Assembly (NCBI RefSeq): GCF_030812315.1
Contig: NZ_JAUSSM010000001.1
Span: 558,001 to 622,000 of the forward strand
Source: Arthrobacter oryzae
GTDB taxonomy: Bacteria; Actinomycetota; Actinomycetes; Actinomycetales; Micrococcaceae
Direction of reading: 5' to 3'
Length of the DNA: 64,000 nt
Part shown: positions 32,862 through 43,788 of the stretch, in pieces
How the letters are laid out: each line of letters begins with the position of its first letter
Numbering within the stretch: position 1 is the stretch's first letter
Translations under genes and position numbers: made by a program
The notes under the pieces: model-generated
What the model was told of the DNA's origin: nothing
Databases searched by the model: none
Seen by the model: the letters and a program-made list of their open reading frames with translations, nothing else

Positions 32862-33596
32862 TTACAGCAACTGCTTCTCGATGCGGGCTGCGCTCGAGGT
32901 CAGGGCTGCCGCCACCTCTGCCGGATCCTGCGTTGAGCGGATATACACGACGGCGACCGAAGCGGGGCGGCCGCCCGGCACGTTGATGGGGGCCGCCAGC
33001 GATGAAACCCCGGCGATGACCTCGTCATGGCTGGCCGCGTAGCCGCGCTTCCGTGCTTCCGCTGCCTCGGCCCGGTAGGGGATATCCGGTGCCAACAACT
33101 TCCAGTCCTGTTCCGTGAGCGCGGACTGGATGGCGATGCCGGGGGCGCCGGCGCTGATAGGGTGCCGTGACCCGGGGTGCTGGACCACCGTCGCCGCCGA
33201 GTGCCTGGGCTCCACGGTCACGAGCGTGATGCAGTCCTGGTGGTCCCACACGGCGATGAACGCTGTCATGTTCAGGGTGTTGGCAAGCTGGGTCAGCTCC
33301 GGCAAGGCTGCCGACTGCAAGGTGCGTGATACCCCCCGTGCCAGGACGGCCAGGCCGGGTCCGGGCTGAACCCTGCCGGCGTCGTCCCGGACCAGGAGCG
33401 AATGGTCCTCGAGCGTGCGCAGGATCCGGTACGCGACGGAACGGTGGACGCCCATGGCGTCCGCGAGCTCCGCGATGGTGAGTGGCTGCTCGGCTTCCGC
33501 CAGGATTTCCAGCGCGCGGATACCGCGCGAGAGGGTCTGGGACGGGGAAGCCTGGGCGGGCGCAGCCTGTGCGCCGGCGCCTGCGGTCTGAGTCAT
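32862..33596 (-). CDS. IclR-family transcriptional regulator
   Basis: This 244-residue protein has an N-terminal winged helix (about residues 22-85, TIAELADAMGVHRSVAYRILRTLE) and a C-terminal effector domain (about 95-244) with the typical HPISAGAPGIAIQSAL and ISSLAAPINVPG-type blocks. IclR proteins sense small carboxylic or aromatic acids. It is divergent from a flavin reductase / HpaB-type monooxygenase pair, with three GTTC-N7-GAAC-type boxes between them, so it probably controls that module. I prefer ATG 33596 over 33605 because TAGGAT ends 7 nt before it. Confidence 0.93.
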   Translation of the reverse strand: MTQTAGAGAQAAPAQASPSQTLSRGIRALEILAEAEQPLTIAELADAMGVHRSVAYRILRTLEDHSLLVRDDAGRVQPGPGLAVLARGVSRTLQSAALPELTQLANTLNMTAFIAVWDHQDCITLVTVEPRHSAATVVQHPGSRHPISAGAPGIAIQSALTEQDWKLLAPDIPYRAEAAEARKRGYAASHDEVIAGVSSLAAPINVPGGRPASVAVVYIRSTQDPAEVAAALTSSAARIEKQLL

Positions 33597-33603
33597 GCTG
33601 TCC

Positions 33604-33609
33604 ATCCTA
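33604..33609 (-). promoter_or_regulatory. -10 box TAGGAT of iclR
   Basis: On the minus strand TAGGAT ends 7 nt before ATG 33596. It overlaps the alternative upstream ATG at 33605, which argues against that start. Confidence 0.5.
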
Positions 33610-33738: not shown

Positions 33739-34275
33739 ATGATGATTGCCAAGCCCCGCGCGGAGGCTCCCGAAGTCATCGGCAGGACATCCGGCCCGCG
33801 CGCCCACCACTTCCGCGGCAGCCTGGGCAGATACGCCACCGGGGTCGCGATCGTGACATTCGACGGCGTCACCAAGCGCCACGGCATTACCGTCAATTCG
33901 TTCACGTCCGTGTCCATGGAGCCGCCCCTGGTCCTGGTCAGCATTGCGCGGACCACGAAAGCGCATGATGAGCTGGCCGGACGCCCGTTTACCGTCAACA
34001 TCCTGGGCGCCGAACAGCGGCAGCTGGCCATGCATTTCGCCGGCGTCCCGGGGCCCGAACCCCGGTGGGTGGAAGGTGAAACAGCGCCGCGGCTGTCCGG
34101 CGTCCTCGCCTATTTCGAGTGCAAGCCATGGGCGGAGTACGACGGCGGCGACCACACCCTGTATCTCGGCGAGGTGGTGGATTTCAACTACCGCAACGGG
34201 GACGCCCTGGCGTTTGCCAACAGCACCTTCACCACCATCCCGGAGAGCCAGCTGGGTATGGAGGACCTGCTATAG
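33739..34275 (+). CDS. Flavin reductase component of a two-component monooxygenase
   Basis: This 178-residue protein has the flavin-reductase-like domain of the HpaC/DIM6 type: GRYATGVAIVTF, the FMN-binding VNSFTSVSMEPPLVLVSI, and GDHTLYLGEVVDF near the end. It supplies reduced flavin to the monooxygenase encoded 74 bp downstream. The ATG has AAGGG five bases upstream. It is the first gene of the IclR-flanked module. Confidence 0.93.
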   Translation: MMIAKPRAEAPEVIGRTSGPRAHHFRGSLGRYATGVAIVTFDGVTKRHGITVNSFTSVSMEPPLVLVSIARTTKAHDELAGRPFTVNILGAEQRQLAMHFAGVPGPEPRWVEGETAPRLSGVLAYFECKPWAEYDGGDHTLYLGEVVDFNYRNGDALAFANSTFTTIPESQLGMEDLL

Positions 34276-34348: not shown

Positions 34349-35803
34349 ATGGGTATCCGTACCGGCCGGCAGTACCTGGACAAGCTTAACGCCATGACGC
34401 CCCATGTGGTGATCGACGGCGAGGTGGTCAGTGAGAAAATCGCTGAGCACCCCGCGTTCCGCAACGTGGCCAGGTCCTACGCCAAGCTCTTCGACATGCA
34501 GCACGACCCCGCCCACCAGGAAGCGCTGACGTACCCCTCGCCCTCCACCGGCGACCTGGTGAACGCATCGTTCCTGGTCCCCAGGACAGTCGAGGATCTG
34601 CAGCGACGGCGCAGGGCCATTTCCACGTGGGCAGAATTCTCGAACGGCTTCCTCGGCCGCTCGGGGGACTATATGAACTCTTCCCTGACGGCACTCAGTA
34701 CCGCACAGAAGTGGTTTGCGCAGGCTGACCCCAAATTCGGTGAGAATATCCGCAACTACTATGAGTGGGCGCGTGAGAATGACGTCCTGGCCACGCATAC
34801 GCTGATCCCGCCGCAGGTCAACCGCTCCGTCTCGGGCTCCGAGCAGATGGGCGGGCAGCTGACGGCGCACATCGTCGAGGAGCGGGAGGACGGCATCGTG
34901 GTCAGCGGCGCCCGCATGCTGGCCACCATCGCCCCGATCGCCGATGAACTCCTCGTCTTCCCATCCACTGTGCTGCGCGGCACCCCAGAGGATGCCCCCT
35001 ATTCCTTCGCGTTCGCCATCCCCAACGATGTGCCGGGCTTGCGCTACCTCTGCCGCACCTCGCTGTACAACGGCGGCAGCACCCACGATGAACCGCTGGC
35101 CTCGCGCTATGAGGAGATGGACGCCGTCGCAATCTTCGACAACGTGTTCGTGCCAAGCGAGCGGATCTTCATGCTCGGCAACCCGCAGCTCTGCAATGCC
35201 TTCTACACGGAGACCGGCGCGGGTGCCCTGATGACGCACCAAGTGGTCACCCGGACCATCGCAAAGAGCGAGTTCTTCCTCGGGCTGGCGTCCGAGCTCG
35301 CCGATTCGATCGGGATCGACGGCTTCCAACACATCCAGGAGGACATCGCGGAACTCATCATCGACGTCGAAATCGGCAAGGCGCTGGTCCGGGCGTCCGA
35401 GGCGGACGCCCAGCTCAACGAGGCCGGCATGATGCTGCCCAAGTGGTCCACCCTGAACGCAGCCAGGAACTGGTACCCCAAGATCGCCCAGCGCTTCCCG
35501 CAGATCATCCGGAAGTTCTCGGCGTCGGGGCTCATGGCGCTGCCCGGTGAGGCTGACGTCAACAGCGAGGCCAAGGCGGACATCGACACGTACCTGCAGG
35601 GCAAGACGCTCACCGGCCCTGAGCGCGTCCGCCTGTTCAAGCTGGCGTTCGACGCGTCCATCTCCGGGTTCTCGGGCCGGCAGTCCCTCTACGAGTACTT
35701 CTTCTTCGGGGATCCCGTCCGGATGGCCGGCGCCCTCGTCAATACCTATGACCGGGAGCCTGTCCGTGCCCGGGTCCGGGAATTCCTCAACAGGCAGGAG
35801 TAA
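34349..35803 (+). CDS. HpaB-family flavin-dependent aromatic monooxygenase
   Basis: This 484-residue oxygenase is similar throughout to 4-hydroxyphenylacetate 3-hydroxylase (HpaB) and chlorophenol monooxygenases. It begins with TGRQYLDKLN, followed by the flavin/substrate region THTLIPPQVNRS and the C-terminal SGRQSLYEYFFFGD. It hydroxylates a phenolic ring using FADH2 from the partner reductase; the actual phenol cannot be told from sequence. GGAGGAAG precedes the ATG. Neighbouring IclR and MHS transporter genes support an aromatic-uptake-and-hydroxylation module. Confidence 0.92.
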   Translation: MGIRTGRQYLDKLNAMTPHVVIDGEVVSEKIAEHPAFRNVARSYAKLFDMQHDPAHQEALTYPSPSTGDLVNASFLVPRTVEDLQRRRRAISTWAEFSNGFLGRSGDYMNSSLTALSTAQKWFAQADPKFGENIRNYYEWARENDVLATHTLIPPQVNRSVSGSEQMGGQLTAHIVEEREDGIVVSGARMLATIAPIADELLVFPSTVLRGTPEDAPYSFAFAIPNDVPGLRYLCRTSLYNGGSTHDEPLASRYEEMDAVAIFDNVFVPSERIFMLGNPQLCNAFYTETGAGALMTHQVVTRTIAKSEFFLGLASELADSIGIDGFQHIQEDIAELIIDVEIGKALVRASEADAQLNEAGMMLPKWSTLNAARNWYPKIAQRFPQIIRKFSASGLMALPGEADVNSEAKADIDTYLQGKTLTGPERVRLFKLAFDASISGFSGRQSLYEYFFFGDPVRMAGALVNTYDREPVRARVREFLNRQE

Positions 35804-35909
35804 ACGGGCGGTATTTGGCGGGCCGGCCGCCGCTGCTGAGGCGGCGACAGCGTCCGCGCAAGAATTTAAGTGCGCTTTGTCACACAATCGAGTATCCTCA
35901 TACCAACTG

Positions 35910-35923
35910 ACCGTTCGATCGGT
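35910..35923. promoter_or_regulatory. ACCG-N6-CGGT palindrome upstream of the MHS transporter
   Basis: A 14-bp near-palindrome (12 of 14 positions symmetric), ACCGTTCGATCGGT, lies 60 bp before the transporter start. It resembles TetR-family operators. No TetR gene is in the window. Confidence 0.4.
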
Positions 35924-35983
35924 AAATCGCGCGGCTCCAATTCACCTCCGGCAGCAACACTGCCCCCAGCCCACGGAGTTCCA

Positions 35984-37315
35984 ATGACCGCAACTTCACA
36001 CGTCGATTCAGAGGCGGGCCCCAGCAGCAAGCATGAGGAACGAAAAGTCCTCGCGGGCACGCTGGTCGGCACCACCATCGAGTGGTACGACTTCTTCATC
36101 TTCGCCCAGCTGACGGGCACTCTGCTGTCACCGCTGTTTCTTACCCCGCTGCAGCAGTCCAACCCTGGGCTTGCCCAAATCCTCTCCTTCGCCCTCATTG
36201 GTATCAGCTTCCTCTTCCGGCCCCTTGGGGCCGTTATTGCCGGCCACCTGGGCGACCGCCTTGGCCGCAAGGCCATGCTCGTCTTTACCCTCGTCATGAT
36301 GGGTGCCGCGACGGCGCTGATCGGCGTGCTGCCTACGTACACCCAGATCGGGGTTCTGGCTCCGATTCTCCTGATCCTCCTCCGGATCATCCAGGGCTTC
36401 TCCGCCGGCGGTGAGTGGGGCGGCGCCGCCCTGATGGCCGTGGAGCATGCACCAATGAGCAAGCGGGGGATCTTCGGCGCGTACCCCCAGATCGGCGTTC
36501 CCGTCGGCATGATCCTCGCCACGGGCCTGCTGTTCTTCCTGCGGAGCGGCATGTCTCCGGCCGACTTCGACGCATGGGGCTGGCGTGTACCGTTCCTGCT
36601 GTCTATCGTGCTGATTGTGGTGGGCTACCTCATTCGCCGCGCTGTTGCGGAAAGCCCGGTGTTCCGCGAGATGGCTGCCCGTAAGGCCGAGAGCAAGGCC
36701 CCGCTGGGAGAGCTCATCCGCCATCACAAGAAGCCGGTCCTCTACTCGACCATGATCTTCATCGCCAACAACGCCGCCGGATACCTCCTGATTGCGTTCT
36801 TCATTTCCTACGCAACGCGCTCGCTGCAAATGCCCGCACCGCAGGTCCTGCTCGCCACGACGCTGGCCTCCTTTGGCTGGCTGATCTTTACGCTGGTCGG
36901 CGGCTGGCTCTCGGACAAGATCGGCCGGGTCAAGACCTTCCTGGCGGGCTATGCCATCGTCTTTGCCTGGATGATTCCGATGTTCGCCCTCATCGACACC
37001 AAGGACATCGTGCTCTACGGCGTGGCGCTGTTCGTCCTGACGATCGGCCTGGGCCTGTCCTACGGCCCGATGTCCGCCATGTACGCGGAAATGTTCCCGG
37101 CGAATGTCCGCTACTCGGGCATCTCGATCGGCTACGCCTTCGGCGCGATCCTGGGCGGTGCGTTCGCGGCCACCATCGCGGAATGGCTGCTGCAGACCAC
37201 CAAGTGGACCGGGTCCATCGGCATCTACATCATGATCCTGTGCGTCATTTCCGCCGTCGGCGTACTGCTGGCGAAGGAGACCAAGGGGAACCTGCTCGGG
37301 GTGAGCCGCCACTAG
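35984..37315 (+). CDS. MHS-family MFS transporter (aromatic acid / organic acid symporter type)
   Basis: This 443-residue, 12-segment transporter belongs to the metabolite:H+ symporter group (ShiA/ProP-like). It starts with the hallmark GTTIEWYDFFIF and has motif A GHLGDRLGRKAML, RIIQGFSAGGEWGGA and the second motif A LSDKIGRVKTF. The ATG 35984 is preceded by GGAG five bases away. It probably imports the substrate of the HpaB-type enzyme, although it has its own promoter region. Confidence 0.92.
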   Translation: MTATSHVDSEAGPSSKHEERKVLAGTLVGTTIEWYDFFIFAQLTGTLLSPLFLTPLQQSNPGLAQILSFALIGISFLFRPLGAVIAGHLGDRLGRKAMLVFTLVMMGAATALIGVLPTYTQIGVLAPILLILLRIIQGFSAGGEWGGAALMAVEHAPMSKRGIFGAYPQIGVPVGMILATGLLFFLRSGMSPADFDAWGWRVPFLLSIVLIVVGYLIRRAVAESPVFREMAARKAESKAPLGELIRHHKKPVLYSTMIFIANNAAGYLLIAFFISYATRSLQMPAPQVLLATTLASFGWLIFTLVGGWLSDKIGRVKTFLAGYAIVFAWMIPMFALIDTKDIVLYGVALFVLTIGLGLSYGPMSAMYAEMFPANVRYSGISIGYAFGAILGGAFAATIAEWLLQTTKWTGSIGIYIMILCVISAVGVLLAKETKGNLLGVSRH

Positions 37316-37430: not shown

Positions 37431-37943
37431 TTAGGAGCCGTACGCCGGAAGCGCCACGTTGCAGTCCGCGGCTTTCAACGGCGCCCCCAGGCTGAGCAGA
37501 GTCGTGCCCTTGGCTGAGAGGCTAAGGCTGGCGCCATGCCGGTCGGAAGACTTGATGACTGTCCAGCCGCCAGGAACGTCCGCGAGCTTCTCCACCTTGG
37601 TGAAATGAAACTTTTCCAGCACCGGGTTCACCGCAGCCATAACCTCCTTAAAGCGGGGTGAGGCCTTCTCAAGGCCCTGCTTCGATTCATACGATGCCGG
37701 ATGAAAGCTGCAGCCCTGTCCGTCCTCGCGTGGTCCAAGGTGCTCCGTTGCCTCACGGCTCCACTCAACAGTGGGAAATTTTGCCGAGAGTGCTGCCATC
37801 AATTCCCGGGTCATGGACCGGTAGTGGGGCACGCCATCCTCAATGGACAGCGGCGCGATGGACGGCGGCTCGGTGGCCGAGCAGCCGGAAAGCAGCATCA
37901 CAAGGGTTGCGGCAGCAGCTGCCCATGGTCGTAGTGCCTGCAT
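37431..37943 (-). CDS. Predicted lipoprotein of unknown function
   Basis: This 170-residue protein has a type II signal peptide: hydrophobic MQALRPWAAAAATLVMLL then lipobox L-S-G-C at about residue 20. The mature domain has two cysteines (GQGCSFHPASYES and AADCNVALP) that could pair. I chose ATG 37943 because it gives a standard signal peptide; the open frame runs further upstream but into a segment covered by the divergent lipoprotein-like frame. The domain is unassigned, of the small actinobacterial secreted lipoprotein type. Confidence 0.7.
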   Translation of the reverse strand: MQALRPWAAAAATLVMLLSGCSATEPPSIAPLSIEDGVPHYRSMTRELMAALSAKFPTVEWSREATEHLGPREDGQGCSFHPASYESKQGLEKASPRFKEVMAAVNPVLEKFHFTKVEKLADVPGGWTVIKSSDRHGASLSLSAKGTTLLSLGAPLKAADCNVALPAYGS

Positions 37944-37959
37944 CGATAGCGCCTCCCGG

Positions 37960-38226
37960 CTGACGTTCTTCAGTAGACTTTTCAGCCGGCTGTGTGCCGC
38001 CGTGTTCGTCACGAGTCTCGCCATCCCGCTGGTAGCCTGCGCGCCGGCGGCCCAACCCCAGGGCCCAACGATGGGTCTTTCCACAGCCAAGGAGTCAACA
38101 CCAAACCAGCAGGACGAGCTCATGTCGGCCGTCGCGTCGGACGACGTCTCCTCGACCGTACAGTCCGAGACATCCGGCGCCCTGTTCGAGTGCGAGGCCG
38201 GAGGCTACTACTGGCCCGGGACCTAG
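37960..38226 (+). pseudogene. Truncated lipoprotein-like ORF lacking a normal start
   Basis: The frame encodes a basic n-region, a hydrophobic core and a lipobox (L-V-A-C, Cys at about residue 27), then about 60 residues ending YYWPGT. No ATG, GTG or TTG lies between the preceding gene's 5' end and the signal sequence; CTG 37960 is the only plausible start, 17 bp from the divergent lipoprotein ATG. The C-terminus stops abruptly at the edge of the hydrolase gene. It looks like the N-terminal half of a longer secreted protein cut off during rearrangement, but a short functional lipoprotein with a CTG start is possible. Confidence 0.45.
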
Positions 38227-39050
38227 ACGCTCAGGAAGTCGATAGCGCCCTGCTTGAAGGCCCTGCTGGTGATCACGTTGCTGTGGTTCCTGCCCGGTAT
38301 CAGCAATTGCTCAACGAGCGACCCTGACTTGGCGCCCAGTTCGGCGAGCTCGGGCATAGTGGCGGCGCGGTCGTCCTTTTCGCCGGCCACGAGCAGCATC
38401 GGCATGTGGGGGATGGCTTCGGCCGGGTCAAAGGGCTCGCCCTTGATTGCTTCCACGAGGGACAGTAGGGCAAAGATGTTGTTGCTCGGCAGCCCCTGCG
38501 CCATCTTCAGCAGCCCGGCAGTGGATTCGTCCGCGATGGGGGTGCCGTCGGCCAGGTAGCGCTGCGCGGCCACCAGGTCAAAGGCGGCCAGCGGGTCCGC
38601 GATGTTGGGGCCCCCGAGCACCAGCCGGTGAACCAGTTCCGGCTGGGTGGCCCCGAATTCCCAGGCGAGCCGTGATCCCAGCGAGTAGCCGATGACGTCG
38701 AGCCCGCTGACTGGGTCACCGTCCCGCAAAGGACGGGCGCCGGCGTCGAACGCCACCTGCAGGAGGTCCGCCCGGATCCTGCTTGGGCTGTAGGAGTCCA
38801 TGTCTTCCGGGGCCCCGCTGCGGCCGTGACCAGGCAGGTCCACGGTGATGACACGGCGGCCGGCTTCCAGCAGGGCGGCCAGCCAGCCGGTGTCCTCCCA
38901 GTTCAGCTTGGTGGAGGAGGAAAATCCGTGGAGCAGCAGGACGGGCCGCAGTCCGGCGTCGGCCGCCGGCTCATGCACCTCCACGTAAAGCTGGGGGTCG
39001 GTGCCCTCCACGGTGTGGTGGTGCTGCTCGCCGGTGTGCCTGCCGCTCAT
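38223..39050 (-). CDS. Alpha/beta hydrolase encoded with the 2-oxoacid dehydrogenase genes
   Basis: The product has 275 residues. LLLHGFSSSTKLNWEDTGW forms the oxyanion region, G-Y-S-L-G has nucleophile Ser123, the acid is Asp226 or 227 (GEKDDR) and the histidine is His256 (GRNHSNV). In acetoin dehydrogenase E2 (AcoC) a lipoyl domain is fused to an alpha/beta-hydrolase domain; here the lipoyl protein is encoded just upstream as a separate ORF. I chose ATG 39050, which has AGGA eight bases upstream and lies 4 bp after the lipoyl gene stop. It may act as the acyltransferase half of a split E2. Confidence 0.82.
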   Translation of the reverse strand: MSGRHTGEQHHHTVEGTDPQLYVEVHEPAADAGLRPVLLLHGFSSSTKLNWEDTGWLAALLEAGRRVITVDLPGHGRSGAPEDMDSYSPSRIRADLLQVAFDAGARPLRDGDPVSGLDVIGYSLGSRLAWEFGATQPELVHRLVLGGPNIADPLAAFDLVAAQRYLADGTPIADESTAGLLKMAQGLPSNNIFALLSLVEAIKGEPFDPAEAIPHMPMLLVAGEKDDRAATMPELAELGAKSGSLVEQLLIPGRNHSNVITSRAFKQGAIDFLSV

Positions 39051-39054
39051 GGTG

Positions 39055-39384
39055 TCAGTCCTCATCAAGTACGGCGCTCAGGCGGACCCGGCGCTTCGGT
39101 GCCTCTTCCTTCGGGACCGTGCCCACGATGCCGGCAGTGTTGTCCGGCACCTCAAACACAATCAAGGGCTCGCCGACATTGATCTTGTCGCCGGGCCCGC
39201 CGTGGATACGCACCACTTTACCTGCCTGCGGACTGGGCAGTTCAACAGCCGATTTGGTGGTTTCCACCTCGACGAGGGGCTGGTTCCGTTCCACCTGGTC
39301 GCCGGGCGAAACCAGCCATTCCAGCACGGTCGCCTCGATCAGGCCTTCGCCGAGATCGGGAAGCGGGAAGGAAATTTCAGCCAC
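39055..39384 (-). CDS. Stand-alone lipoyl-domain protein (E2 fragment-like)
   Basis: This 109-residue protein is a complete lipoyl domain (about residues 2-80) beginning SFPLPDLGEGLIEATV, with the lipoylated lysine at Lys44 in ETTKSAVE. It has no peripheral-subunit-binding domain and no catalytic acyltransferase domain, whereas ordinary E2 proteins are about 400-500 residues. The last ~30 residues are charged. The GTG start overlaps the E1 beta stop by 8 nt. It carries acyl intermediates, but the transferase must be elsewhere; the adjacent alpha/beta hydrolase is the candidate. Confidence 0.85.
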   Translation of the reverse strand: MAEISFPLPDLGEGLIEATVLEWLVSPGDQVERNQPLVEVETTKSAVELPSPQAGKVVRIHGGPGDKINVGEPLIVFEVPDNTAGIVGTVPKEEAPKRRVRLSAVLDED

Positions 39385-40441
39385 GGCGGTACTCCAATAC
39401 TCGCTGGATGCCAAAGAGGATCCGGTCAATGTTCGGGATGTATTCGTCTTCGAGGTCGCCGGAGGGATACGGGACGTCAAAGCCGGTAATTCGCTCCACA
39501 GGAGCTTTGAGGGTGTCGAAGCAGCCCTGCGTGACCAGCTGGGCCACCTCTGCGCCCAGCCCTGAGGTCAGCGGCGCTTCATGGACGACGACGGCGCGCC
39601 GCGTCTTCCGCACGGACGCCACCAGCGCGGCTTCGTCGATGGGCTTTAGCCAGCGCAAGTCCAGCACTTCGACGTCGATCCCGTCCTCGGCGGCCAGCTC
39701 GGCCACCTGCAGGCAGCGGGCCACCATGGCCCCCCATGCGACGAGGGTCACGTGCCGGCCCGCGCGCATGACGTTGGCGCCGGTGGGGGAATCCCCGGCG
39801 GGAGAGTCTGACCCGTCTGCGGAGTCGAAGTTGACCCCGCCTTTCTGCCAGTAGCGGGACTTCGGTTCCATAAAGATCACCGGGTCCGGCCGGGTGGCGG
39901 CGTACTTGAGCAGGTGGTAGGCCTCGTGCGGGTTCGACGGCGAGACTACCTTGAGGCCCGGAACGTGGGCAAAGAGTGCCTCGAGGCTTTCGCCGTGGTG
40001 CTCAGGGGCGCGGATGCCCCCAAAGCTGGGCACACGCAGGGTGACCGGCATCGGCATGGTGCCCCGGCTGCGGTAGTTCATCCGGGCGATCTGGCAGACG
40101 ATCTGGTTGATGGCCGGGTAGGCGAAGCCGTCGAACTGGACTTCGGGGATCGGGTGGAAGCCGGCCATCGCCAGGCCGACGGACATGCCGAGGATGCCGG
40201 ACTCGGCGAGAGGGGTGTCAAAAACCCTGCCTGTTCCGTACTTCGCCTGGAGCCCGTCCGTTATGCGGAACACGCCGCCCAGCCGCCCGCAGTCCTCGCC
40301 GAAGATCAGCGCTTTCGGATTCCCGGCCAGCACCTCATCGAGGGCCCGGTTCAGCGCCTGCTGCATGGAAAGCTGTTCAACTCCGTGGTTGGGAGTTCCA
40401 TCGGCCATGGCGGCCTCGCTTTCAAGGATGGCGTTAGACAT
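39377..40441 (-). CDS. 2-oxoacid dehydrogenase E1 component, beta subunit
   Basis: This 354-residue subunit has a transketolase-like pyrimidine-binding fold: IFGEDCGRLGGVFRITDGL, FDTPLAESGILGMSVGLAMAG, and the C-terminal LRWLKPIDE ... VVVHEAPLTSGLGAEVA region. It pairs with the E1 alpha subunit to decarboxylate a 2-oxoacid or acetoin-type substrate. ATG 40441 overlaps the E1 alpha stop by 8 nt and gives the expected N-terminus. A roughly 15-residue Asp/Ser-rich insert near residue 215 is unusual for the family. Confidence 0.93.
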   Translation of the reverse strand: MSNAILESEAAMADGTPNHGVEQLSMQQALNRALDEVLAGNPKALIFGEDCGRLGGVFRITDGLQAKYGTGRVFDTPLAESGILGMSVGLAMAGFHPIPEVQFDGFAYPAINQIVCQIARMNYRSRGTMPMPVTLRVPSFGGIRAPEHHGESLEALFAHVPGLKVVSPSNPHEAYHLLKYAATRPDPVIFMEPKSRYWQKGGVNFDSADGSDSPAGDSPTGANVMRAGRHVTLVAWGAMVARCLQVAELAAEDGIDVEVLDLRWLKPIDEAALVASVRKTRRAVVVHEAPLTSGLGAEVAQLVTQGCFDTLKAPVERITGFDVPYPSGDLEDEYIPNIDRILFGIQRVLEYRRG

Positions 40442-41531
40442 GCTCGGACTCCTCGCGCCAGTTGGCTGCCTGGGCCTGCAGCGCAGGCGTGGTTTCCTGG
40501 AAGACCAGGTCGAACATTTCACTGCCGGGGCGGGAACCGAGCGCCTGGACGCCGGCGCGGATTTCTTCCTCTTCGCTCTTGGCGGCGGCGAGGGCTTCGG
40601 CGAAGAAGGCTTCGTCGGCGACGCCGTCGGCGAGCAGCCGCCGCCGGAACCGCTCCAGCGGGTCCTCCCCGGCGTCGTCGCGCTCTTCGTTCAGTGAGCG
40701 GTAGCGGCCCGGATCATCGGAGGTGGAGTGCGGGCCGCGGCGGTAGGTCATGGCCTCGATGAGGGCCGGGCCGTTGCCTGCCCGGCAGTGCGCAAACGCC
40801 CGCCGGGTCGCTTCGACCACGGCGACGACGTCGTTCCCGTCAATCCGGAGGGCCGGGATGCCGTATCCGGCCGCACGGGCGGCCACGGAGCCGCCGGCCA
40901 CCTGGCGTTCTGTGGGGACCGAGATGGCCCAGCCGTTGTTCTGGACGAAGAAGACGACGGGGGCCTTCATGACTGCCGCGAAGTTCATGGCCTCATGCAC
41001 ATCGCCTTGGGACGAGGCGCCGTCACCGAAGTAGGTCATGGCCACGCCGAGAGTGCCGTCGGCGGGGCGGGACAGCGTCTGGCCGTGGGCCCAGCCCACG
41101 GCGTGGAGCACGGAGCCGCCCACCACGGCCTGGATCGGCGCCAGCCGGGATTCCTGCGGATCGTACAGGCCGCCGTGCCAGGTGGCCTTGTGCGTGGACA
41201 TGTACGCCACCATGTCCACTCCCATGGCCCGGGCAACACCCATTTCCCGGTAGGTGGGAAAGACGAAGTCGCGGGCAGTGTCCACGGCGTAGCCGCTTCC
41301 CACCTGGGCCGCCTCCTGGCCGAGTTCGGGGGCGTAGCCGGGGATGAGTCCCTGGCGTTGCCAGGCGATGGCCGAGGCATCCAGGTGCCGGACGGCCACC
41401 ATCAGCGAATACAGTTCGCGGAGCTGGCCGGCGGTCAGCGGCTCGGCCGGAAGACCGGACAGTTGCTCGTAGCGTGGTTCCGACGGCGGGCCGGCATCAT
41501 TGCCGGCGGTCGGGGTAAGCGGGGTATCCAT
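40434..41531 (-). CDS. 2-oxoacid dehydrogenase E1 component, alpha subunit
   Basis: This 365-residue thiamin-diphosphate subunit has the GDG-(26)-NN motif, GDGASSQGD at 169 to NN at 198-199, and RRGPHSTSDDPGRYR, whose STSDD phosphorylation-loop region is typical of branched-chain oxoacid-type E1 alpha. Specificity could be branched-chain oxoacid, pyruvate or acetoin. ATG 41531 is chosen because TAGGGT ends 7 nt before it. It heads a four-gene operon with E1 beta, the lipoyl protein and the hydrolase. Confidence 0.93.
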   Translation of the reverse strand: MDTPLTPTAGNDAGPPSEPRYEQLSGLPAEPLTAGQLRELYSLMVAVRHLDASAIAWQRQGLIPGYAPELGQEAAQVGSGYAVDTARDFVFPTYREMGVARAMGVDMVAYMSTHKATWHGGLYDPQESRLAPIQAVVGGSVLHAVGWAHGQTLSRPADGTLGVAMTYFGDGASSQGDVHEAMNFAAVMKAPVVFFVQNNGWAISVPTERQVAGGSVAARAAGYGIPALRIDGNDVVAVVEATRRAFAHCRAGNGPALIEAMTYRRGPHSTSDDPGRYRSLNEERDDAGEDPLERFRRRLLADGVADEAFFAEALAAAKSEEEEIRAGVQALGSRPGSEMFDLVFQETTPALQAQAANWREESEHV

Positions 41532-41759: not shown

Positions 41760-43145
41760 TTACTGGGTGAGGCTGTCCTGGCGCGATGCGGCGACCTTGG
41801 CGCCGATCCGGCATGCTGCGGCGATAGCGGCGATCAGGATGATGGTGCTCACCAGCTGCCGGCTGCTGTCGGTGTTGCTGAACCCGACGGCGAAGATCAG
41901 GGCCAGCAGGACCAGCCCGAAAATCGTCAGGCCCGGGAAGCCCTTCATCCGGAGCGGAAGTTCGGTGCCGTCGCGGTCGGCCCTGCGGCGCAGGATCAGC
42001 TGCGAGACGAGAGCCGAACCCCAGACCATGAGGCAGGTGGAGCCCACGAGCTGGAAGAGCGCCGGGAGGATCTGCTCCGGGAAAAGCAGCTCCAGCACGG
42101 CGGCGATGAAGCCGAAGGCCACGGACACGCCGACGGCGACCATCGGCACCCTGGCCTTGTTCAGCTTCGACAGGAAGAGCGGGGCTTCGCCGCGCTCCGC
42201 CAGGGAGTAGATCATCCTGGATGCGCCGTAGAGATTCGCGTTGAGTGCGGACAACAGGGCGACGACTGCCACGAGGGTGATGGCTGTGCCGGCTCCGGGG
42301 ATCCGGGCGGCATCGAGGACTCCGGCGAAGGGCGACGCCAGTGATTCGGACGTGGCCGGGAGGACGGCGGCAATGACAAAGACGGAGCCGATGTAGAACA
42401 CGAGGATTCGCCACAGCACCGTACGGATTGCCTGGCCCACGCTGTGGCGGGGGTTCTCGGTTTCGGCGGCGGCCACGCTCACGATCTCGGTGCCGCCGAA
42501 GGCGAAGATCACCACGAACAGCGCGGCGGCAATTCCGCCGAGGCCTTCCGGGGCGAAGTTCCCGGTGATGTTGGCAAGGCCCGGGCTCGCCACTTCCGGG
42601 AGCAGGCCCAAGAGCAGTGCGGTGCCGATGCCCAGGAACAGCAGGATCGCGGCGACCTTGAGGATCGCGAACCAGAACTCGAATTCGCCGAAGTTGCTCA
42701 CGCCGGCCAGGTTGATGGCGGTGAACACGGCCATGAACGCGAGGGCCAGGGCCCAGGCGGGAATGACCGGCCACACGGTGAAGAGCAGGCCGGCCGCGCC
42801 GAGGGCCTCGGCTGCGATGACCACCACCAGCTGCAGCCACCACAGCCAGCCCACTGTGGCGCCGGCGGTGCGTCCCATGGCCTTTTCGGCGTAGACGGAA
42901 AAGGCGCCGCTGTTGGGGTTGGCCGCGGCCATTTCGCCCAGGGCCCACATCACCAGGATGATCAGTGTGCCGGCCACGAGGTAGGAAATCAGTACGGCGG
43001 GCCCGGCGGCCTGGATGCCTGCTCCCGAGCCGAGGAACAGCCCGGCGCCAATGGCGCTTCCCAGTCCCATCATGGTGAGCTGGCGGGGTTTCATGCTGTG
43101 CCCGAGACTTGTGGTGGGGCGCTCTGCGGTGGACTTCATCGTCAT
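41760..43145 (-). CDS. APC-superfamily amino acid permease (AAT family)
   Basis: This 461-residue protein has 12 hydrophobic segments. The early SMKPRQLTMMGLGSAIGAGL block, followed by the FAFGGTEIVSVAAAETENP segment, is diagnostic of proton-coupled amino acid importers such as AroP and CycA. The start ATG 43145 has AGAAGG nine bases upstream. It is divergent from an Lrp/AsnC gene and upstream of the 2-oxoacid dehydrogenase operon on the same strand, which suggests import of an amino acid whose oxoacid is then decarboxylated. Confidence 0.93.
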   Translation of the reverse strand: MTMKSTAERPTTSLGHSMKPRQLTMMGLGSAIGAGLFLGSGAGIQAAGPAVLISYLVAGTLIILVMWALGEMAAANPNSGAFSVYAEKAMGRTAGATVGWLWWLQLVVVIAAEALGAAGLLFTVWPVIPAWALALAFMAVFTAINLAGVSNFGEFEFWFAILKVAAILLFLGIGTALLLGLLPEVASPGLANITGNFAPEGLGGIAAALFVVIFAFGGTEIVSVAAAETENPRHSVGQAIRTVLWRILVFYIGSVFVIAAVLPATSESLASPFAGVLDAARIPGAGTAITLVAVVALLSALNANLYGASRMIYSLAERGEAPLFLSKLNKARVPMVAVGVSVAFGFIAAVLELLFPEQILPALFQLVGSTCLMVWGSALVSQLILRRRADRDGTELPLRMKGFPGLTIFGLVLLALIFAVGFSNTDSSRQLVSTIILIAAIAAACRIGAKVAASRQDSLTQ

Positions 43146-43317
43146 GCTTGCGAACCTTCTTGTGGTCGTTGGGTGGTCCTTTTGGGACAACTTGAATTTA
43201 CCGCCCCGGCCAAGCCTCTTCGCACGCCGTTCGTGAGAGCATGGTGGCAGTTTGCAGGTACATCGTCGTTTTATTCGGTGATTTGTGACCTGGCCCGCGA
43301 GCTTGGAAGGAAATTCG

Positions 43318-43788
43318 ATGAATGTGGACGAGATCGACGCCAAAATTGTCCGATTCTTCACGGATTCGCCCAAGGCCTCGGTGCTTGAAGCCTCGCGTGT
43401 CCTGAAGATCGCCCGTGCCACCGTCCAGTCCCGGCTGGACCGGATGGCGGCGGGCGGGGTCATCGGATCGTGGGTGCCCCAGCCGGATCCGGCACACTTC
43501 GGCTATCCGGTGGTGGCGTTCTGTTCGCTCACCATCAATCAGGACCTGGGGCATGATGCGGTGGTCGAGGCGCTGGCGCGCATCCCCGAACTGATCGAGA
43601 TCCACACCGTGTCAGGCAGCTCGGACCTGATGGCCCGGATCGCGGCCAGGTCCAACCCGGACCTGCAGCGGGTCCTCGATGCCATGATCGCCACCAGGAC
43701 GGTGCTGAGGGCCTCGTCCGTGATTGTCCTGAACACGCATTTCCAAGGCCGGACACTGCCGCTGCTGGAAGCTGCCGCCGCAATGTGA
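43318..43788 (+). CDS. Lrp/AsnC-family transcriptional regulator
   Basis: This 156-residue protein has an N-terminal helix-turn-helix (about residues 5-50, EIDAKIVRFFTDSPKASVLEASRVL) and a RAM effector domain. ATG 43318 follows GGAAGG. It is divergent from the amino acid permease across 172 bp. Lrp-type regulators such as Pseudomonas BkdR control branched-chain oxoacid dehydrogenase genes, so control of the permease and possibly of the E1 operon beyond it is a reasonable inference. Confidence 0.9.
   Translation: MNVDEIDAKIVRFFTDSPKASVLEASRVLKIARATVQSRLDRMAAGGVIGSWVPQPDPAHFGYPVVAFCSLTINQDLGHDAVVEALARIPELIEIHTVSGSSDLMARIAARSNPDLQRVLDAMIATRTVLRASSVIVLNTHFQGRTLPLLEAAAAM

Follow-up and report, generated by a model that had tools for sequence, protein, structure and literature searches.

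A normal complex of a thiamine-diphosphate 2-oxoacid decarboxylase (E1), an acyltransferase (E2) and a flavoprotein (E3) would turn 4-hydroxyphenylpyruvate into 4-hydroxyphenylacetyl-coenzyme A (CoA). In AcoC (NCBIfam profile NF011457) a lipoyl domain and an alpha/beta hydrolase that serve an E1-alpha/E1-beta pair are joined in a single polypeptide, and GcvH is a stand-alone lipoyl carrier that serves glycine cleavage. Another stand-alone lipoyl carrier, LbpA, is reported from sulfur oxidation (PMC6067878), and the mitochondrial alpha/beta hydrolase ABHD11 is described as cleaving glutaryl-lipoyl, with no activity on glutaryl-CoA in the account cited here (PMC12643935). The phenylpyruvate dehydrogenase PglB/PglC and the thioesterase PglD are described as sharing an operon of the pristinamycin phenylglycine pathway (PMC10685826). 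Here we analyzed a four-gene operon of Arthrobacter oryzae, at 41531-38223 on the reverse strand of a 64,000-nucleotide stretch that we refer to as the window (contig NZ_JAUSSM010000001.1, positions 558,001 to 622,000), which encodes E1-alpha, E1-beta, a lipoyl-only carrier protein (lip) and a separate alpha/beta hydrolase (hyd; Table 1). We put at roughly 57% the probability that this operon specifies a 4-hydroxyphenylpyruvate dehydrogenase without acyltransferase that releases free 4-hydroxyphenylacetate via the hydrolase.

Tyrosine gives 4-hydroxyphenylpyruvate by transamination, and the homoprotocatechuate route begins with free 4-hydroxyphenylacetate. Since that pathway starts from the free acid, whereas a normal complex would deliver the CoA ester, we propose a hydrolytic scheme for E1, lip and hyd in which a hydrolase in place of a CoA acyltransferase would give the free acid at once. 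In the order of reactions that we infer, E1-alpha/beta would decarboxylate tyrosine-derived 4-hydroxyphenylpyruvate on thiamine diphosphate and acylate the lipoyl moiety of lip; the hydrolase, a putative acyl-lipoyl thioesterase, would cleave the 4-hydroxyphenylacetyl-lipoyl thioester with water to free 4-hydroxyphenylacetate instead of passing the acyl group to CoA; and a shared E3 encoded elsewhere would act in trans to re-oxidise the dihydrolipoyl group. The free 4-hydroxyphenylacetate would then pass to HpaB and its flavin reductase and on to the homoprotocatechuate ring-cleavage enzymes. If this is true, a 2-oxoacid dehydrogenase ending in hydrolysis would be a changed chemistry in a textbook enzyme class, with energy conserved as NADH and not as a CoA ester.

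The step from 4-hydroxyphenylpyruvate to 4-hydroxyphenylacetate can reportedly be traced to papers of 1976-1977, and the 4-hydroxyphenylpyruvate oxidase activity is one that we take to be EC 1.2.3.13. The Arthrobacter arilaitensis genome paper reports growth of the strain on tyrosine but no located gene for this step (PMC2991359), and strain Rue61a is stated to grow on tyrosine, via the 4-hydroxyphenylacetate route as its authors propose (PMC3534580). GapMind, according to its authors, does not cover tyrosine degradation through 4-hydroxyphenylpyruvate oxidase because too little was known about it (PMC9007349). We see close to an even chance that the operon is the missing Micrococcaceae gene set for this conversion, E2-less, with a free lipoyl carrier and a dedicated acyl-lipoyl thioesterase; genes would then be assigned to a step that the A. 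arilaitensis genome paper and GapMind left without them. Among the open-licence PMC papers listed by literature searches that did not extend to patents, none was seen to connect the operon with tyrosine.

The four genes are tightly packed, as the first-pass annotation of this DNA had stated: Pfam and NCBIfam scans bear out the domain assignments of all four products, and 8-bp overlaps join E1-alpha to E1-beta and E1-beta to lip. For the hydrolase, an ATG at 39065 would give 280 residues and an 11-bp overlap with lip, and an ATG at 39050 would give 275 residues and a gap of a few bases; the latter is favoured because a GAGGA stretch lies eight bases upstream of it. The arrangement is not a product of chance, based on the fact that the same gene order recurs throughout the family.

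With their E1_dh, Transket_pyr and Transketolase_C domains, and a GDG...NN thiamine-diphosphate stretch that aligns with solved E1-alpha chains, the E1 subunits are, like the lipoyl domain, ordinary members of the classes found in the branched-chain and pyruvate dehydrogenase complexes. Unlike those complexes, the operon has no recognised subunit-binding domain, acyltransferase core or E3: Biotin_lipoyl (residues 6-76) is the sole Pfam domain in lip, the Pfam scan recognised neither of the other two domains there, and PF00198, the E2 core, has no match at the locus and six elsewhere in the genome. The three Pyr_redox_dim matches of the genome, which mark E3-type flavoproteins, are all on other contigs, consistent with the earlier statement that the operon encodes no E3. 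Five E1_dh matches were found in the genome; three of the others have a 2-oxoacid_dh core shortly downstream and the fourth lies inside a 1305-residue frame that also holds such a core, whereas the operon E1 has none beside it, and the nearest one on its contig is some 100 kb away.

It is gene linkage that points to 4-hydroxyphenylpyruvate as the substrate, with 4-hydroxyphenylacetate and CO2 as the predicted products. In the window, 2.4 kb separate the hydrolase from hpaB; a major facilitator superfamily (MFS) symporter lies in between, and a flavin reductase and an IclR-type regulator lie behind hpaB. The order in L131 (genus g55) is E1-alpha, E1-beta, lip, hyd, FAH/HpaG-like, GntR, HpaE and HpaD, the last two scoring above their cut-offs; the operon of L132 (g55) likewise continues into FAH/HpaG-like, GntR, HpaE and HpaD genes, and in L133 (g55) another gene intervenes. 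The same run, plus the permease and a divergent AsnC gene, occurs in L232 (g42) and L233 (g43), the latter with an intervening kinase-like gene, and L234, from the window's genus, has the operon, hpaB, the flavin reductase and hpaGED in one stretch, again with the permease and AsnC genes. If hpaB, hpaG, hpaE, hpaD or the flavin reductase is counted as a link gene, the operon is linked to hpa genes in ten genera, the window's included (g1, g40, g42, g43, g52, g53, g55, g60, g61, and g63).

Counts of neighbours are consistent with this linkage. Among flank loci hand-picked at mostly one to three per genus, 15 of the 24 E1-bearing loci had an hpa gene or flavin reductase in the flank retrieved (14 by an hpa gene), versus 2 of 15 E1-less ones. 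Hyd and hpaD are less than 20 kb apart, irrespective of strand, in 30 of 99 genomes (16 with E1, 14 without) versus about one expected (99 x 40 kb / ~4 Mb), the 99 being drawn from listed rows that comprise 150 of the 175 hydrolase genomes and 148 of the 270 hpaD genomes. We also compiled 81 loci of named relatives: the window and 80 others, whose records carry the names Arthrobacter, Pseudarthrobacter, Paenarthrobacter, Specibacter or Micrococcaceae and so cover more than one genus. Where these had enough flank, hpaB was nearby in 22/32 E1-bearing and 2/40 E1-less loci. As an independent marker of co-loss hpaB was rejected, there being only four supported independent pairs and a sign test that was not significant. 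The window genome's own hpaG-E-D-H-I set is on another contig, with HpaE, HpaD and HpaH over their cut-offs, HpaI below, and the HpaG-like protein over the cut-off of the general FAH-family model only.

The E1 subunits themselves are less specific. E1-alpha scored 392 bits against TIGR03181, under its cut-off of 411, and the solved chains closest to it are the E1-alpha subunits of pyruvate and branched-chain dehydrogenases; those closest to E1-beta, at nearly equal scores, are E1-beta chains of 2-oxo acid (1um9), pyruvate (3duf/1w85) and 2-oxoisovalerate (2bp7/1qs0) dehydrogenases. This about equal likeness to pyruvate and branched-chain E1, together with a regulator of AsnC type and a permease of unclear specificity, would also suit a different 2-oxoacid, branched-chain or phenylpyruvate, in which case proximity to hpa genes would reflect only a shared aromatic/amino-acid regulon. 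We regard that explanation as distinctly improbable, based on the several genera in which the operon and hpaG/E/D follow each other head to tail and on the canonical E1/E2 sets of the same genome, which could serve branched-chain acids.

Table 1. Coordinates in the window of the operon genes and of neighbouring genes considered in the analysis.
Feature	Position	Strand	Length	Profile matches and remarks
E1-alpha, thiamine-diphosphate 2-oxoacid decarboxylase alpha subunit	40434..41531	-	365 aa	PF00676, 251 bits
E1-beta	39377..40441	-	354 aa	PF02779/PF02780
Lipoyl-only carrier protein (lip)	39055..39384	-	109 aa	GTG start; PF00364, 70.8 bits
Alpha/beta hydrolase (hyd), proposed acyl-lipoyl thioesterase	38223..39050	-	275 aa	PF00561/PF12697
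Amino-acid permease, operon's upstream partner in many genomes	41760..43145	-		PF00324
Lrp/AsnC-type regulator, divergent	43285..43788	+		PF01037 and PF13404
HpaB, 4-hydroxyphenylacetate 3-monooxygenase oxygenase component	34349..35803	+		TIGR02309, 591.6 bits (cut-off 480.2)
Flavin reductase, presumed HpaC partner	33739..34275	+		PF01613; HpaC models matched below cut-offs
MFS metabolite:H+ symporter	35870..37315	+		TIGR00883, 389 bits (under 443 cut-off)
IclR-type regulator of hpaB side	32862..33605	-		PcaR/PobR-like, below cut-off

E1-alpha (match cut E <= 1e-100) was found in 86 of 295 family genomes, across 14 genera, and the hydrolase (E <= 1e-60) in 175. The hydrolase is next to E1-alpha in all 86 E1-alpha genomes, at a start-to-start distance of 2.1-2.8 kb in 80 of them; in the other six, from two genera (G160, G214; G167, G195, G238, G255), a diverged hydrolase comes straight after lip (L129-L133, L165). 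The figure of 86 is a lower bound because the 1e-100 cut missed G292, whose locus L145 has E1, lip and hyd. This constant pairing supports the earlier idea that lip and hyd are a two-protein stand-in for E2. An oddity confined to one genome is ruled out by the family-wide recurrence, and the hydrolase was matched in all 90 same-genus genomes searched, in two of them in broken pieces. A second, similar alpha/beta hydrolase was seen by eye in frame L129 1623-3284 (genus g48), beside an IclR gene and an MFS transporter.

Among the matches listed from 396 phylum genomes (E at most 1e-105), E1-beta proteins outside the family were at most 58% identical. None of the 29 loci fetched (outside-family matches or paralogues) contained a lipoyl-only gene, the lipoyl match there falling in frames of 327-1004 residues. 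As the closest E1-beta genes outside the family sit before lipoyl matches in long E2-like frames, the lipoyl-only form is peculiar to the family as far as sampled, and within the same sampling the operon arrangement is old and family-specific.

The lipoyl Lys proposed in the first-pass annotation, Lys44, is invariant in 11/11 aligned lipoyl domains (alignment A2), and its lipoylation is predicted. The C-terminal tail of lip, a basic RRVRL followed by an acidic end, is common to all eight lipoyl-only rows of this alignment and absent from the one canonical lipoyl paralogue aligned that far, the other two canonical paralogues ending before this region; judged by its sequence, the RRVRL tail could be a docking motif. 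As a small free lipoyl protein, lip resembles GcvH and LbpA, neither of which serves an E1 (for LbpA, as its source describes it; PMC6067878). In L076 and L026, near relatives that keep E1 and the hydrolase, the lip reading frame shifts between residues 56 and 58 and the gene is thereby broken in two, which may be genuine or a sequencing fault.

The same annotation had likened lip and hyd to a split AcoC. A reading of this kind, in which the hydrolase would receive the acyl group carried by lip and hand it to CoA, giving an acyl-CoA from acetoin or another substrate, can draw on the domain pair, which is the same as in AcoC, and on the fact that NF011457 was the best NCBIfam match for two of four hydrolase orthologues scanned and the sole match for a third. 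However, the scores of these four orthologues (20.8-64.9 bits), like those of the window's lip (52.4 bits) and hydrolase (42.9 bits), are far under the NF011457 cut-off of 307 bits, and lipoyl domain and hydrolase lie on two genes here and are separate in the family loci listed. The neighbours, moreover, are 4-hydroxyphenylacetate and not acetoin genes: none of the latter came up in the neighbours that were inspected, which was done by eye and with hpa and operon queries in tblastn, no search having been aimed at acetoin genes. The distant likeness of the hydrolase to NF011457 thus stands, and membership in AcoC and an acetoin role are not supported; in terms of sequence, "split AcoC" is a resemblance rather than a membership, and an acetoin operon is rejected on the profile scores together with the neighbour genes. 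Two plasmid matches at first taken for fused AcoC proved to be ordinary E2s, and the likeness to AcoC rests on the profile. The first-pass casting of the hydrolase as an acyl-transfer subunit is likewise less probable than hydrolysis, because the neighbouring pathway starts from the free acid and a CoA ester would need one extra enzyme. Overall, we consider a split AcoC-like E2 unlikely.

The fold and active site of the hydrolase suit a thioesterase and many other enzymes. The Ser of the predicted nucleophile elbow is, as had been proposed, Ser123 of the 275-residue form that starts at 39050 (Ser128 if the start is 39065), and the triad Ser128/Asp231/His261 (280-residue numbering) is invariant in 80/80 orthologues of the named relatives and in 17/17 aligned rows across genera. 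Fold and Ser-Asp-His triad place the protein among the alpha/beta hydrolases, with putative catalytic roles for these residues. A structure model (predicted local distance difference test score, pLDDT, 91.9) has alpha/beta-hydrolase fold neighbours, including thioesterase, enol-lactonase and MenH folds, and sequence and fold searches of the PDB returned generic alpha/beta hydrolases only; since these neighbours are generic, the fold leaves the type of reaction undecided.

In the Pgl pathway the intermediates are CoA esters. Like the operon studied here, PglB/PglC/PglD is reported to place a dehydrogenase for an aromatic 2-oxoacid and a thioesterase in the same operon, but PglD is named as a separate enzyme beside PglA and no lipoyl carrier is mentioned in the passages cited (PMC10685826). 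ABHD11, as its source describes it, is a Ser-His alpha/beta hydrolase acting on an acyl-lipoyl thioester (PMC12643935), an activity proposed by analogy for hyd; ABHD11 is stated to clear adducts from the OGDH E2, whereas hyd would carry out a normal product-releasing step (PMC12643935). The two proteins are linked through a template only, as 7c4d, the template of an ABHD11 model, is a weak sequence match and a generic fold match of hyd.

About half of the hydrolase-bearing genomes of the family lack this E1. By matched length, which does not denote intactness (L112 and L076 contain broken genes), all four genes are present in 36/81 loci of the named relatives; in 7/81, E1 is lost and lip sequence is left over 46-100% of its length; and in 38/81, one of them (L090) with a short flank, the hydrolase is alone. 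The permease gene is directly before the lip remnant or the hydrolase in many of the E1-less loci listed. Lip remnants ahead of a full-length hydrolase form a natural series of operon decay. Shortened or broken remnants directly before a full-length hydrolase match were seen in L017, L018, L028, L030, L034, L047, L048, L056, L060, and L075. In a tree built from 80 hydrolase genes, the state of E1 switches six times, and well-supported branches force at least four of these switches.

The hydrolase is under purifying selection also where E1 is missing: the median ratio of nonsynonymous to synonymous substitution rates (dN/dS) is 0.056-0.092 within five E1-less clades versus 0.053 and 0.116 within two E1-bearing clades (L112, whose hydrolase is frameshifted, was excluded from the triad, tree and dN/dS counts). 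This would be expected of a repair or housekeeping enzyme that clears dead-end adducts in the manner of ABHD11 (a precedent as far as its source describes it; PMC12643935), or of one unrelated to the operon, while E1 and lip work in trans with an acyltransferase core that belongs to another complex; the genome has three canonical E1/E2 sets that could lend one. Such a role is unlikely in our view, as E1-alpha was never seen without an adjacent hydrolase, lip has a lipoyl domain only and no recognised subunit-binding domain, and linkage to hpa genes would not be expected of a general repair gene. The first-pass annotation had held that an independent existence of the hydrolase would speak against its reading, and the result is divided: many genomes keep the hydrolase without E1 or lip, but all 86 E1-alpha genomes have a hydrolase beside E1-alpha.

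Several observations weigh against a 4-hydroxyphenylpyruvate dehydrogenase. The classical activity is named an oxidase and not an NAD-linked dehydrogenase. The hydrolase persists without E1 in 45/81 loci of the named relatives and, in genus g57, beside hpa genes, and therefore has another job there; its wide occurrence without the operon argues against a subunit that serves nothing else and would suit an enzyme whose substrate is an acyl thioester of small size or high mobility. Without E1 it perhaps frees 4-hydroxyphenylacetate from another thioester, or cleans lipoyl groups like ABHD11. In two g57 loci, L226 and L227, the hydrolase is about 1-3 kb from an hpaG-GntR-hpaE-hpaD run, and no E1 or lipoyl gene was matched in them. 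Nine of the 24 E1-bearing flank loci have no hpa gene in the fetched flank, the association of E1 with hpaB among near relatives is clade-wise and not independent, and the permease is not recognisably aromatic-specific. As hpaD is present in 270/295 family genomes, far above the 86 with E1-alpha, the ring-cleavage pathway must have further entry points. Finally, 4-hydroxyphenylpyruvate oxidase (4-HPPO) from A. globiformis is mentioned in a review as having been put into plants (PMC9338888), and the A. globiformis locus L074 is without E1 and lip and keeps hyd and hpaB. Either these bacteria have two routes, or our substrate assignment is wrong; a sequence of the A. globiformis 4-HPPO may exist in other sources.

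The genes flanking the operon vary in how closely they accompany it. The permease, which is GABA-permease-like (gamma-aminobutyric acid) and under every listed cut-off, adjoins E1 in loci of relatives, including L232-L234, and the Lrp/AsnC gene keeps its place at the operon head in other genera. The MFS symporter adjoins hyd or hpaB in many loci, and an IclR-type gene with a similar N-terminus was seen by eye in the same block of L162 and L231. A serine/threonine-kinase-like gene (by eye) is located just past the hydrolase in L233 (5934-7070), L139 (6704-7690), L143 (6437-7402), and L153 (2980-3975), and occurs there with or without E1 in several genera. A lipoprotein-like gene (window 37431-38123, same strand) adjoins the hydrolase; its PF16708 (LppA) match is exactly at the cut-off and, among the loci listed, those in which it found a match all belong to the genome of the window. 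In L225, also from this genome (C17:24500-44000), hpaG-GntR-hpaE-hpaD-hpaH-hpaI lies downstream of prephenate-dehydratase-like and FAD-monooxygenase-like genes, both recognised by eye.

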